The notes beneath the pieces were generated by a model. The model searched no databases and had not been told where the DNA came from. It worked only from the letters and a program-made list of their open reading frames with translations. A DNA stretch of 64,000 nt, taken from contig SBGZ01000085.1 in the NCBI GenBank assembly GCA_006226415.1, positions 29,348 to 93,347 of the forward strand. The letters are read 5' to 3'. Positions 50,090 to 55,471 of the stretch are shown piece by piece; position 1 is the stretch's first letter; every line of letters starts with the position of its first letter. Origin of the DNA: Alphaproteobacteria bacterium. GTDB taxonomy: Bacteria; Pseudomonadota; Alphaproteobacteria; M2410. The translations under genes and the position numbers were made by a program.

Positions 50090-50166
50090 GGCCCCGTAGC
50101 TCAGGTGGATAGAGCACCAGATTCCTAATCTGGGGGCCACAGGTTCGAATCCTGTCGGGGTCGCCA
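50090..50166 (+). tRNA. tRNA-Arg (anticodon CCT)
   Basis: GGCCCCG TA GCTCAGGTGGATAGAGC A CCAGATTCCTAATCTGG GGGCC ACAGGTTCGAATCCTGT CGGGGTC G CCA; full cloverleaf, CCA encoded. Confidence 0.97.
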
Positions 50167-51230: not shown

Positions 51231-51258
51231 TTGATCTCCCCTTCCTCCCGGGTATAGT
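51231..51258 (+). promoter_or_regulatory. Putative promoter of the SLOG-like gene
   Basis: TTGATC-N16-TATAGT, ~75 nt upstream of ATG 51334. Confidence 0.5.
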
Positions 51259-51333
51259 GAACGGATCGACTAAACATTGATTCCGGCGCCCCCGCGAAAT
51301 CTTGGGGGGAATATCCAAACAGCAAGGCTCTTG

Positions 51334-53190
51334 ATGACAGGCTTGACGCACCCACCTCGCCCCCAAATGGCCTACCGTATTGGCATTACCGGCCACCGGC
51401 GCAACCGCATAAGAGCCGAACAGATCGAGCGTATCGAAAATGAGCTGGCGAACGTCTTTTCGATTATTGATGAGGCCGTCAAAAAATCCCACGAAGCCTT
51501 TTCAACCTATTATGAGGCTAACCCGCCCGTCGTGCGACTGATCACACCTCTGGCCGACGGCGCTGATTCGCTCGCCGCCAAGGTCGCTCTCAAACATGCC
51601 TTTGATCTGCACGCCCCGATTCCTTTCCACAAAGCCGAATACGCCACCGATTTCGAACCGGACGCCCGGCGCGAACTTGAAGCCTTCATCGCCAACGCCA
51701 CAAGCATTTATGAGCTTGATGGGGGGCGCACGTCGGACCGCGATGAGGCCACGGCCTATCTCGCTGCCGGTTACATGACCCTCAAGCAATCAGATGTCTT
51801 GGTGGCGGTATGGGATGGTGAAGGCGCCAGAGGTGTCGGCGGCACGGGCATGATCGTCGAGGCCGCCGTGCAGCAAGGCATTCCCGTTGTTTGGATCCAT
51901 GCCGATGAACCCATGCCTGCCTGCATATTGTCAGAGGAGCTGACCTGCGACAAACCCTTGTCAGAGCTTACCAATATTGTCAGTCACGAATTGCAGCCGC
52001 CTTTCGTGCGCGACGCAGAGCAAAGCGATCCAGAACTCAGTGAGGAACAGCTCGCACTTGAAGTTTATTTGAGCGAAATCGAAAGACGTACAAATTACGG
52101 AATTTTCTATCGCCTCATGGAAAGCCTTCTAACCCTGTCGCGCCCACGCGGCATATCGATCCGGAAGGCGCCCTACCTTCCGCGCACTGAAGAGATGTAT
52201 CACGACCTGGCGACAAAACTGCCGTCAGCAGGGACCCGGGCTTTCACGCAAATGGAAGAGGTCCTGTTGTCCCGGTTCTGCTGGGCGGACAATCTCGCAC
52301 TGCATTACGCCGATATTTATCGCTCTTCCTACGCAATGAATTACTTCCTCAGCGCCTTTGCTGTCTTGTTGGCACTCATGGAAATCCTGACCGGCGGCTG
52401 GAAATTTGTCTGGATCTCGGTGGAAGTGGTGACCATCCTCGCGGTTCTCCTGATTACCTTGCGCGGTAAACGCAATCGCTGGCACGAAAAATGGATCGAC
52501 TACCGCCAGCTGGCCGAACAATTGCGCCACTTGCGCTATCTTTATTTGTCGGGCGGCCTGTCACGGGACTCGCGCGCCCAGCAACAAAGCGACACCTCCC
52601 TTGGATCAGATTCCTGGGTGCAATGGTATTATCAGGCAACCGTGCGAGAGCTGGGCATGGCTCACATCGAATGCACGGAAACCTTTCGCGAAGAACTCTC
52701 CCGCTCCTATATTGACGACGAGCTCAATCCGCAGATTTCCTATCACGCCGCCAAGAGCCATACGCTGGAGCATATGGAACATGCCCTGCACAAAACCGGC
52801 GAATATCTTTTTGCCGCGACTCTGGTCATCTGCATCAGCTTTCTGGGCCTTTTGATCCTCTCCAAGATAAATGACCACGGCATTGCCTATAAGCTCACCA
52901 AGGCCTTAAAGGGTTTTGTAACAGCCGCCACGGCCTTTTTCCCGGCCCTGGGCGCCGCCACCTTTGGCATCCGGGTGCAAGGCGAATTTGCCTCCACTGC
53001 CAGCCGGTCTCATGCCATGTCCCGCCGTCTGACGGTGACGCGCGACGAACTCGCTCTTTATGCGGAAAATGCGCCCCCCAACTTAAGGGATCTGCGCCGC
53101 AACATCGAAACCGCCACCGAAACCATGATGGTGGAGATCGTTGACTGGAAATTCGTCTTTAGTAGCAAACCCTTATCCCTTCCCGCCTAA
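51334..53190 (+). CDS. SLOG/LOG-like nucleotide-binding domain fused to a predicted 4-TM (SLATT-like) region
   Basis: YRIGITGHRRNRI...RLITPLADGADSLAAKVALKHAFDLHAPIPFHKAEYATDF...SDVLVAVWDGEGARGVGGTGMIVEAAVQQGIPVVWIHAD; TMs at YFLSAFAVLLALMEIL, FVWISVEVVTILAVLLITL, LFAATLVICISFLGLLIL and ALKGFVTAATAFFPALGAATFGI; KWIDYRQLAEQLRHLRYLY after second TM. Confidence 0.7.
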   Translation: MTGLTHPPRPQMAYRIGITGHRRNRIRAEQIERIENELANVFSIIDEAVKKSHEAFSTYYEANPPVVRLITPLADGADSLAAKVALKHAFDLHAPIPFHKAEYATDFEPDARRELEAFIANATSIYELDGGRTSDRDEATAYLAAGYMTLKQSDVLVAVWDGEGARGVGGTGMIVEAAVQQGIPVVWIHADEPMPACILSEELTCDKPLSELTNIVSHELQPPFVRDAEQSDPELSEEQLALEVYLSEIERRTNYGIFYRLMESLLTLSRPRGISIRKAPYLPRTEEMYHDLATKLPSAGTRAFTQMEEVLLSRFCWADNLALHYADIYRSSYAMNYFLSAFAVLLALMEILTGGWKFVWISVEVVTILAVLLITLRGKRNRWHEKWIDYRQLAEQLRHLRYLYLSGGLSRDSRAQQQSDTSLGSDSWVQWYYQATVRELGMAHIECTETFREELSRSYIDDELNPQISYHAAKSHTLEHMEHALHKTGEYLFAATLVICISFLGLLILSKINDHGIAYKLTKALKGFVTAATAFFPALGAATFGIRVQGEFASTASRSHAMSRRLTVTRDELALYAENAPPNLRDLRRNIETATETMMVEIVDWKFVFSSKPLSLPA

Positions 53191-53251
53191 TGACCGGACA
53201 AATTTTCAATATGCGCGAAAAACCGCAGAAACCCTGACCTATTACTTGGCT

Positions 53252-53276
53252 GAGGGTCAAATACCATGTTATGGTA
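53252..53276 (+). promoter_or_regulatory. Operator-like palindrome overlapping a putative -10 upstream of the TIR gene
   Basis: TACCAT-GTT-ATGGTA at 53262-53276, overlapping TATGGT (53270-53275); candidate -35 TTGGCT 18 bp upstream. Confidence 0.4.
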
Positions 53277-53307
53277 ATTGGCAAATCTGCGGGGGGTGCG
53301 GGATTAT

Positions 53308-55440
53308 ATGTCCGACGTTTTTATTTCCTATTCTCGAAACGACAAGGATCGAGTTGAAAAGCTTGTCGAGGCCATGCGCGCGCGTGGAATTGATGTCTGG
53401 TGGGATCCCAAGATCCGCACCGGGACAGAATTCCGCTTCGAAATAGCCCAGGCGCTCGAGAACGCACGGGTCGTCGTTGTCGTCTGGTCGGCCCATTCCG
53501 TTGCCTCACGATTTGTCTGGGACGAAGCCGATGAAGGCGCCCAGCGCGGCGCACTCGTTCCCGCCCTCTTTGACCTGGTCGATATCCCGCTTGGTTTCCG
53601 CCAGATCCAAACAGCGGACCTATCTCGCTGGCACGGTAAGCGCAAGGACCCTGCCTTGATGGAATTCCTCGACGTGGTTCAGGACGCCGTCAAATACGGC
53701 CGCAAAGCCAAGCCGGTGAAGCCAACCAAAAAGCCCAAGCCCGTTGCCCATGAAGAGCCTCAAGAGGTCGAGGAAACAACAGCCCCCGCGCCGGCCCCTG
53801 AACGCCAGCCCAGCCGATCTGAGACCCGAAGGCGGCCGCGGCGCAGTGCCATGGTTACCGGCCAGCGCATGCGCACAAAGCTGTTCATGAAGGCGCTCAT
53901 GTTGACGGTTTTGATCGGCGGTGCCTTTGGCGCCCTGGCCTATCTGTCGGATTTCGTATTTGACGCTTACCGCCCCTATATGGTGGGCGCCATAGCCGGG
54001 TTGGTCTTTATTTCTCGTTTCTCGACCTTTGAGGCAGATCGCGCTCAGGGCGCGGCCTCGCTGAGGCTCTTGCCCCGCTCCTATCTTGCCCTCCTCTTCT
54101 TTGCCGCCATCTCGATCGCGCCAGCTCTTCTGGAGGGCCGCATGTACGCGGCAGCCCTGCAGGCGGTCCGCATGGAAGGTGTTGAAGGCGCAGACATTAA
54201 CGGCGTTGCCTTTAGCAGCGATGGCAATGAGATCATCACCACGTCAGACGACACCACCGCGCGTCTGTGGGATTCCAAAACCGGGGTCGAACTCGGGATC
54301 TATGGCGGTCATGAACATTGGGTCTGGGGCGCCGGTTTCAGCCCCGATGGTAGCGAAGTCGTCACCGCCTCGCGAGACATGACAGCCCAGGTCTGGTCCA
54401 CCAAAAATCGCAAGCCCATTGAAACACTCAAAGGGCACACAGCCAGCGTCTACGACGCCGCCTTTTCGCCCGACGGCAAAACCATTGCAACTGCCTCCGC
54501 CGACAAAACTGTTCGCCTGTGGAACGTGGAATCTGGCGAAAGCATCGCCCTCATGAGCGGCCACACAGACAAGGTAACCGGACTTGATTTCAGCCCAAGC
54601 GGCAATACCCTCGGCACGGTTTCAGAAGATGGGACTCTGCGCCTCTGGCGGGTTCCCAGCGGCAGTGCCCTTGGCCGCATGACAGCAGGCAGCAACCTTT
54701 TGTCGGTTGATTTTAACAATGACGGAACCCAGATCGCCGCCTCCGATGAAAACGGCCAAATATATGTTTGGGATGTCGGGAGCCGCAGTCTCGTCCGCAA
54801 AATCACCGCGCCTACAAAACAATATGGCGTCGCTTTCGCAGGGAACAAAAGTCAGTTTATCGCCGGTGGCGGGTTGGACGACACCTTACGCATCTGGAAA
54901 ATCTCCGACGGTGAAATTTTGCATGAATTGACCGGCCATGAGTCCGACATTCGCGCAGTGAGTGCCGCGCCCGATGGCGCCTATGTAGCCACAGCCTCAC
55001 GTGACAATACCGCACGCATTTGGGATGTAGAGACAGGCAAGCAAGTGCAAATCATGGGGCACATCAAACCAGCCCTGCGTCTGCCGATGGCCCTCGATCT
55101 GCCGCCCTACATTACTGCCTCCAGAGCACCCGTGCCGCTTGACGTGACAAAGGATCGCGATGAGCTGGTTTATTTGCTCGGCAAAGGCTTTGTCCTCGCG
55201 TCAATCTTGCTGCTGGCGGGCCTGTTCTTCAAAGGGTTCTTCAAGCTCATTCGGCTGCAGCGACTTTCAAACATCTCTGTCGTATTGATGCTGGGTCTGC
55301 CAACGCTCTACATAGCCGCTTTGATGGTCTCAGCTTTGCCCATTCAGGCCATGGGGCTTTGGGCTACGATTGCCTTCTTGCCGGCAGCGGTCTATGCGCT
55401 CCTGCGTTGGATCGCCACAAAGGCCATCGTCCGCAGATAA
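53308..55440 (+). CDS. TIR domain protein with WD40 beta-propeller and two predicted TM bundles
   Basis: MSDVFISYSRNDKDRVEKLVEAMRARGIDVWWDPKIRTGTEFRFEIAQALENARVVVVVWSAHSVASRFVWDEADEGAQRG...PLGFRQIQTADLSRW; seven WD-like repeats; TM segments before and after propeller. Confidence 0.9.
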   Translation: MSDVFISYSRNDKDRVEKLVEAMRARGIDVWWDPKIRTGTEFRFEIAQALENARVVVVVWSAHSVASRFVWDEADEGAQRGALVPALFDLVDIPLGFRQIQTADLSRWHGKRKDPALMEFLDVVQDAVKYGRKAKPVKPTKKPKPVAHEEPQEVEETTAPAPAPERQPSRSETRRRPRRSAMVTGQRMRTKLFMKALMLTVLIGGAFGALAYLSDFVFDAYRPYMVGAIAGLVFISRFSTFEADRAQGAASLRLLPRSYLALLFFAAISIAPALLEGRMYAAALQAVRMEGVEGADINGVAFSSDGNEIITTSDDTTARLWDSKTGVELGIYGGHEHWVWGAGFSPDGSEVVTASRDMTAQVWSTKNRKPIETLKGHTASVYDAAFSPDGKTIATASADKTVRLWNVESGESIALMSGHTDKVTGLDFSPSGNTLGTVSEDGTLRLWRVPSGSALGRMTAGSNLLSVDFNNDGTQIAASDENGQIYVWDVGSRSLVRKITAPTKQYGVAFAGNKSQFIAGGGLDDTLRIWKISDGEILHELTGHESDIRAVSAAPDGAYVATASRDNTARIWDVETGKQVQIMGHIKPALRLPMALDLPPYITASRAPVPLDVTKDRDELVYLLGKGFVLASILLLAGLFFKGFFKLIRLQRLSNISVVLMLGLPTLYIAALMVSALPIQAMGLWATIAFLPAAVYALLRWIATKAIVRR

Positions 55441-55442
55441 AG

Positions 55443-55471
55443 AAAACCCTGATCACAAGGATCAGGGTTTT
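55443..55471. terminator. Bidirectional terminator between the TIR-WD40 gene and the convergent sensor-domain gene
   Basis: Perfect AAAACCCTGATC-ACAAG-GATCAGGGTTTT. Confidence 0.88.

Follow-up and report, generated by a model that had tools for sequence, protein, structure and literature searches.

Pairs of neighbouring genes coding for TIR and SLATT proteins have been noted in firmicute phages and in other conflict loci by Burroughs, Iyer and Aravind, who predicted an ADP-ribose (ADPr)-type signal and a SLATT membrane effector with two transmembrane helices (2TM), SLATT being regarded as a nucleotide-responsive pore or a membrane effector regulated by ADPr derivatives (PMC9503650, PMC7159879). 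A TIR enzyme and a SLOG-bearing effector also share a locus in type I Thoeris, where the TIR protein ThsB is accompanied by the SIR2-SLOG protein ThsA, whose SLOG domain is activated by isomers of cyclic ADPr (cADPR) (PMC11204291), and in type II Thoeris the TIR signal is thought to trigger a membrane effector, ThsA of the TM-macro form (TM, transmembrane). Here we describe a two-gene cassette from contig SBGZ01000085.1 of an alphaproteobacterium (assembly GCA_006226415.1), in which a SLOG-SLATT gene is followed by a TIR-WD40 gene; the window, to which all positions refer, is the whole stretch of 64,000 nucleotides analysed. The SLOG-SLATT/TIR pairing is real, recurs and lies well above chance. 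We give about an even chance to the cassette being a TIR/SLATT nucleotide-signalling system of the prokaryotic conflict type, anti-phage or acting in stress-triggered cell death, which would be Thoeris-like, though not Thoeris.

Gene 1 had originally been predicted to join a SLOG-like domain to TM segments, and this is borne out by the fold and by the TM hairpins; its membrane part can now be identified as SLATT. On sequence and model, its architecture is SLOG-SLATT-SLATT:

51334..53190, + strand: gene 1 (ATG at 51334), SLOG-SLATT-SLATT membrane protein of 618 amino acids (aa), from the list of open reading frames (ORFs), Pfam, NCBIfam and models.
51367..51963, + strand: YpsA-like SLOG domain with the motifs GxTGHR, LAxGAD, AxWDG and GGT, from the fold match and motif alignment.
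52282..52572, + strand: first SLATT/DUF4231 2TM hairpin (PF14015, E 1.1e-7; SLATT_1, E 2.8e-9).
52681..53151, + strand: second SLATT-like 2TM hairpin (TM helices 491-509 and 527-545), from a sub-threshold SLATT_4 match in homologues and a helical hairpin in the model.

The N-terminal domain had no match to any hidden Markov model, those of Pfam included, and sequence search gave no useful relatives of solved structure. The AlphaFold2 model of the full protein, made with 20 sequences, has a mean predicted local distance difference test (pLDDT) score of 84.9 and two long helical hairpins in the SLATT region. A whole-chain Foldseek search yielded no match with E below 0.001, and the SLOG domain was therefore modelled by itself (pLDDT 93.7). 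The top solved match of this isolated model was YpsA of B. subtilis (E 6.5e-8, probability 1.00, TM-score 0.55/0.69), followed by DprA and then by ShosA; TRPM2 chains matched weakly (E about 0.02-0.05). The four SLOG motifs are almost invariant across 20 sequences, and the sub-threshold Pfam matches of the homologues include DrHyd, DprA, YpsA and YAcAr, which are families of the TIR-DrHyd-SLOG group. Judged by the model, the domain is YpsA-like, its membership resting on the SLOG Rossmannoid fold with YpsA and DprA as nearest structural relatives; the YpsA-like SLOG clade has been reported to contain cADPR sensors (PMC9503650). The first hairpin is matched by DUF4231 at residues 325-406 (32.6 bits against a cut-off of 24.7) and, slightly under the NCBIfam cut-off, by SLATT_1, which is at or over its cut-off in two homologues (L055, L070). 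SLATT_3 of Pfam stays below cut-off in gene 1, as does SLATT_4 in the C-terminal part of the homologues.

Gene 2 was correctly recognised in the original prediction as a TIR protein with a seven-blade WD40 propeller framed by TM segments:

53308..55440, + strand: gene 2 (ATG at 53308), TIR-3TM-WD40-3TM protein of 710 aa, from the ORF list, Pfam and alignment.
53308..53640, + strand: TIR domain (TIR_2, E 1.1e-22; residues 4-111) with the BB loop WWDPKIRTG, from Pfam and alignment.
53524..53526, + strand: codon of Glu73, aligned to the catalytic Glu of TIRs with NAD+ hydrolase (NADase) activity.
53881..54138, + strand: TM1-TM3, preceded by an Arg/Lys-rich linker predicted to be cytosolic, from TM/charge analysis and alignment.
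54184..55077, + strand: seven-blade WD40 propeller (Pfam WD40, E 5e-62), predicted on the membrane side opposite the TIR domain.
55174..55419, + strand: TM4-TM6, with a basic loop following TM4 and a basic C-terminus, from TM/charge analysis and alignment.

The TIR_2 and WD40 matches clear their Pfam cut-offs by a wide margin, and seven WD-type blade ends are discernible in the propeller. Glu73 and the BB loop are present in the window, in a congener, in a genome of the same family (G002) and in Parvularcula lutaonensis, whose TIR-WD40 orthologue is 49.6% identical to gene 2 over the whole protein; by this alignment the TIR active site appears NADase-competent. Both sets of TM helices align across the window, G002 and P. 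lutaonensis, while the congener contig stops within the propeller. Because the linker ahead of TM1 and the loop that follows TM4, conserved in the orthologues, are basic and three TM helices lie between them, the TIR domain is probably cytosolic and the propeller extracytoplasmic by the positive-inside rule. With an approximate insertion-energy threshold all three N-terminal helices pass in P. lutaonensis, whereas the middle one fails in the window, so the membrane side of the propeller is given here as a prediction. Elsewhere, the genome to which the window belongs carries six TIR genes (C86:18781-32845, C46, C51), of which three share a contig and fall within 14 kb; both of those run against Pfam are TIR-TPR fusions.

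In comparison with the TIR-SLATT pairs of phages, SLATT is doubled here and fused to a YpsA-like SLOG sensor, and the TIR domain shares its chain with TM helices and a WD40 propeller. In comparison with type I Thoeris, the predicted output is a set of SLATT membrane hairpins rather than a SIR2 NADase, SLOG is N-terminal, and the TIR protein is membrane-anchored; in type II the signal is sensed by a macro domain and not, as predicted here, by SLOG, and the TM part belongs to a different family. A genuine Thoeris system whose effector is unusual, with SLOG coupled to SLATT in place of SIR2, would agree with a TIR and a SLOG protein in one locus, with the activation of the type I ThsA SLOG by cADPR isomers and with a TIR domain that retains, by alignment, Glu73 and the BB loop. 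Among types I, II and IV, however, the effector is a SIR2-SLOG protein, a TM-macro protein or a caspase-like protease, and no SIR2, macro or caspase domain was found in gene 1 with Pfam, PADLOC or NCBIfam. Its SLOG domain is nearest to YpsA, with no ThsA chain among the 50 Foldseek matches listed, and the matches of gene 2 to the ThsB models of PADLOC are weak (best 1.2e-5) and within general TIR similarity. It is because of the effector that we do not assign the cassette to Thoeris, and such a system seems very improbable. Neither gene contains a CD-NTase or nucleotide cyclase, as in CBASS and Pycsar, or a STAND NTPase or vWA-MoxR core, as in the nSTAND and VMAP ternary systems, according to Pfam; nSTAND1, absent from the cassette, adjoins relatives of gene 1 in Caballeronia and Chlorobiaceae. 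That the pairing is not a named system, as originally suspected, agrees with the lack of any PADLOC match for gene 1 and with a literature search for TIR-WD40, SLOG-SLATT and like names, which gave no relevant paper; the type may already stand in the catalogue of TIR systems by Yirmiya (2025).

Homologues of gene 1 were found by protein search in 13 of 385 Alphaproteobacteria; a profile search, which also catches SLOG-only matches, was positive in 23 of the 385. A TIR gene lies within about 5 kb in eight of these 23 genomes, where the density of TIR genes would predict 0.17 (Poisson-binomial P about 7e-13), five of the eight being SLOG-only matches. With full SLOG-SLATT proteins only, and one per genus, a TIR gene is nearby in two of seven, against 0.05 expected (P about 8e-4). 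The co-occurrence proposed as a check in the original prediction is therefore not rare, though not universal. In the only SLOG-only case examined, G019 (L042:5991-7811), SLOG sits between TPR-S and guanylate cyclase in a protein close to a TIR gene. Four other genomes (G014, G124, G245, G336) have SLOG-profile matches in frames of 490-840 aa no more than 5 kb from a TIR gene. Proteins of the G019 type and similar ones possibly represent a second SLOG/TIR system.

TIR genes adjoin relatives of gene 1 in at least five arrangements: a TIR-WD40 gene convergent to the gene 1 homologue in P. lutaonensis; a TIR-TPR gene; SLOG-SLATT, TIR and nSTAND1-WD40 consecutively on a Caballeronia plasmid; SLOG-SLATT, TIR-DUF4062 and nSTAND1 in Chlorobiaceae, DUF4062 being a TIR-like NADase family (PMC13174449); and a pseudo-TIR-FGE gene in the Marinicaulis group. 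In P. lutaonensis, with its genome of 3.0 Mb, and in G147 the sole TIR gene of the genome is the neighbour of the gene 1 homologue. A scan of named genomes gave 20 loci with gene 1 homologues. A second Caballeronia plasmid has the order TIR, trypsin, SLOG-SLATT, PGDYG, a Novosphingobium plasmid combines SLOG-SLATT with CHAT, and RyR and patatin genes are further partners. In the tree of gene 1 the branches are long and many forks stay open, and only supported sister pairs were used; within these, TIR/nSTAND1 alternates with RyR-AAA (Chlorobiaceae) and TIR-TPR with CHAT. Partner swapping of this kind is typical of conflict systems, and the patchy distribution of the family also favours a conflict-type cassette. 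Three loci contain related RyR-domain proteins with one or two N-terminal hydrophobic helices (L038:5056-7212, L048:5384-7489, L046:6340-8742), next to TIR-WD40 in L038 and to SLOG-SLATT in L046 and L048. A TrkA-N/RCK domain was matched in the proteins of L038 and L048; all three proteins resemble channels with a cADPR-type sensor, a canonical K+ selectivity filter not being seen by eye. For RyR-domain proteins of phages, binding or cleavage of 2'/3'cADPR has been demonstrated (PMC13232231).

Since SLATT has already been predicted to be a nucleotide-responsive pore, the SLOG-SLATT protein is likely the effector, and the TIR-WD40 protein the sensor and signal maker. Gene 1 contains a SLATT/DUF4231 2TM domain coupled to a predicted nucleotide-signal sensor (SLOG, in cis) and a predicted generator (the adjacent TIR, with the enrichment given above). 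The domain content, the intact TIR active-site residues, the YpsA-like fold, the tandem hairpins and the recurrent TIR pairing are read from sequence and structure; from these we infer a membrane side for the propeller, an NADase activity, the identity of a messenger, a pore function and an anti-phage role. Gene 2 would be a membrane receptor whose extracytoplasmic propeller detects a trigger, either a phage at the cell envelope or damage to that envelope. The cytosolic TIR domains would then assemble and cleave NAD+ to an ADP-ribose-type messenger, the cytosolic SLOG domain of gene 1 would bind it, and the tandem SLATT hairpins would open or cluster in the membrane, with the cell killed or arrested. 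The nucleotide-signalling conflict system that the original prediction had put forward is thus plausible, and its defence and sensor-effector interpretation is partly supported, with the roles of the two proteins sharpened. No paper demonstrating a SLATT ligand or pore was found in the literature searched.

As originally observed, the two genes stand on the same strand between a promoter-like sequence and a bidirectional terminator; both are intact ORFs on the + strand, 117 bp apart:

51231..51258, + strand: candidate sigma-70 type promoter TTGATC-N16-TATAGT of gene 1, conserved in the congener (L053).
53210..53285, + strand: second promoter-like site TTGGCT-N18-TATGGT, intergenic, of gene 2, conserved in the congener.
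55443..55471, no strand assigned: bidirectional intrinsic terminator separating gene 2 from the convergent membrane-protein gene, with a 12 bp stem and T-runs both ways.

Sequences of the TTGATC-N16-TATAGT type are not above chance by count (three, against a mean of 2.0 in shuffles), but the promoter of gene 1 is probably real because its block is almost identical in the congener, in which the surrounding sequence has diverged. The candidate of gene 2 (TTGGCx-N18-TATGGT) is similarly conserved, so a strict operon was set aside and the pair may not be a single one. The cassette is flanked by a nitrilase-like gene on one side and the membrane-protein gene on the other, both on the - strand (named by eye). 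A tRNA-Arg (cct) gene at 50090-50166, past the nitrilase-like gene and some 1 kb upstream, is a possible integration site.

Several observations weigh against a conflict-type signalling system. No recognised defence gene adjoins the cassette in the window. Gene 1 homologues lack a TIR neighbour in G007, G164/G261, G073, G197 and G356. No copy turned up in viruses or phages, whether viral contigs were scanned with gene 2 and the profile of gene 1 or phages were searched with gene 1 by tblastn, and a phage-borne origin was dropped. In G002 the orthologue of gene 2 stands without gene 1. The Marinicaulis pair is not accounted for by the simple messenger model: all 16 partner proteins have Gln in place of the catalytic Glu and lack the BB loop, yet up to 14 genomes retain the pair in conserved synteny, next to an HSP70 gene.

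In G002 the orthologue (L038:7237-10375) lies 43 bp from an FGE-sulfatase gene standing in place of the SLOG-SLATT gene, a neighbourhood that echoes the TIR-FGE fusion of Marinicaulis, and it also adjoins a 2TM-TrkA-RyR gene. The downstream gene block is present in G002 without the cassette, the orthologue being at another site, which we count in favour of a conflict-type cassette; this empty-site comparison covered the downstream side, the two flanks lying on different contigs. Such a solitary gene 2, together with a conserved promoter-like site for each gene, would fit a TIR-WD40 protein that itself kills by NAD+ depletion, SLOG-SLATT being a separate, linked nucleotide-responsive regulator with no messenger passing from TIR to SLOG; TIR and TIR-like NADases acting as direct effectors are known, namely SpbK and Swarozyc (PMC12847820, PMC13174449). 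SLATT, however, adjoins TIRs in unrelated settings, where it is the predicted effector (PMC9503650, PMC7159879), and in G002 the place of gene 1 is taken by a different membrane protein, whose RyR domain is nucleotide-linked, as would be expected of a swapped effector. Killing by the TIR-WD40 protein itself is in our opinion distinctly unlikely.

All 15 Marinicaulis-group loci (L055-L069) have a TIR-like gene next to, and after, the SLOG-SLATT gene; in two partners Pfam identified a C-terminal FGE-sulfatase domain, and the remaining ones group with these two. The SLOG motifs are kept in the gene 1 homologues of this group. Messenger production by the adjacent TIR is not universal, as the Gln, the missing BB loop and the fixed synteny of these partners indicate; other TIR genes, of which Marinicaulis genomes have 2-19 hits each, could supply the signal, or the pair could have turned into a scaffolded stress module. 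Extended to the whole family, the latter alternative is a domesticated envelope-stress or housekeeping module, a stable membrane complex of SLOG-SLATT channel and TIR-TM-sensor serving ordinary stress physiology, with the TIR as a scaffold and no need for NAD+ chemistry. It finds support in Marinicaulis and in the window and the congener, which share the cassette site and both promoter-like blocks. Outside Marinicaulis, on the other hand, the family is patchy and plasmid-borne, its partners change (nSTAND1, RyR, CHAT, trypsin and patatin modules), and the TIRs of the window, G002 and P. lutaonensis retain the active-site residues. The vertical, housekeeping-like inheritance named originally as a ground for rejecting a defence role is seen in Marinicaulis and not elsewhere, and a domesticated module is unlikely as a general explanation.

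Returning to the conflict-type signalling system, its parts recall two known arrangements. TRPM2, a six-TM channel, likewise joins a SLOG-type nucleotide-binding module to a membrane channel region, the similarity being weak and at the level of the fold; it is not known to be paired with TIR. Toll-like receptors likewise join a cytosolic TIR across the membrane to a repeat-built sensor, an analogy that depends on the topology predicted here; in gene 2, by contrast, the TIR has a catalytic Glu, there are three TM helices, and WD40, or FGE in Marinicaulis, stands in place of leucine-rich repeats. We tentatively suggest, as a possibility only, a bacterial transmembrane TIR receptor with an outside WD40 (elsewhere FGE) sensor, a cytosolic enzymatic TIR, an NAD-derived messenger and a SLOG-gated tandem-SLATT channel. 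If true, this would be a Toll-like-receptor layout with an enzymatic TIR, and a distinct type of TIR signalling beside the known Thoeris types.

The SLOG-SLATT/TIR cassette is real and recurring, with no name found for it and a function proposed from its domains and neighbours. The prediction of SLATT as a nucleotide-gated pore is years old, and a fused YpsA-like SLOG with an adjacent intact TIR brings signal, sensor and pore within reach of a joint test in a compact system of two genes. The Marinicaulis group offers a natural experiment, the pair being retained and the TIR active site gone, and the propeller, if outward-facing, as is likely, would let a bacterial TIR sense envelope events.

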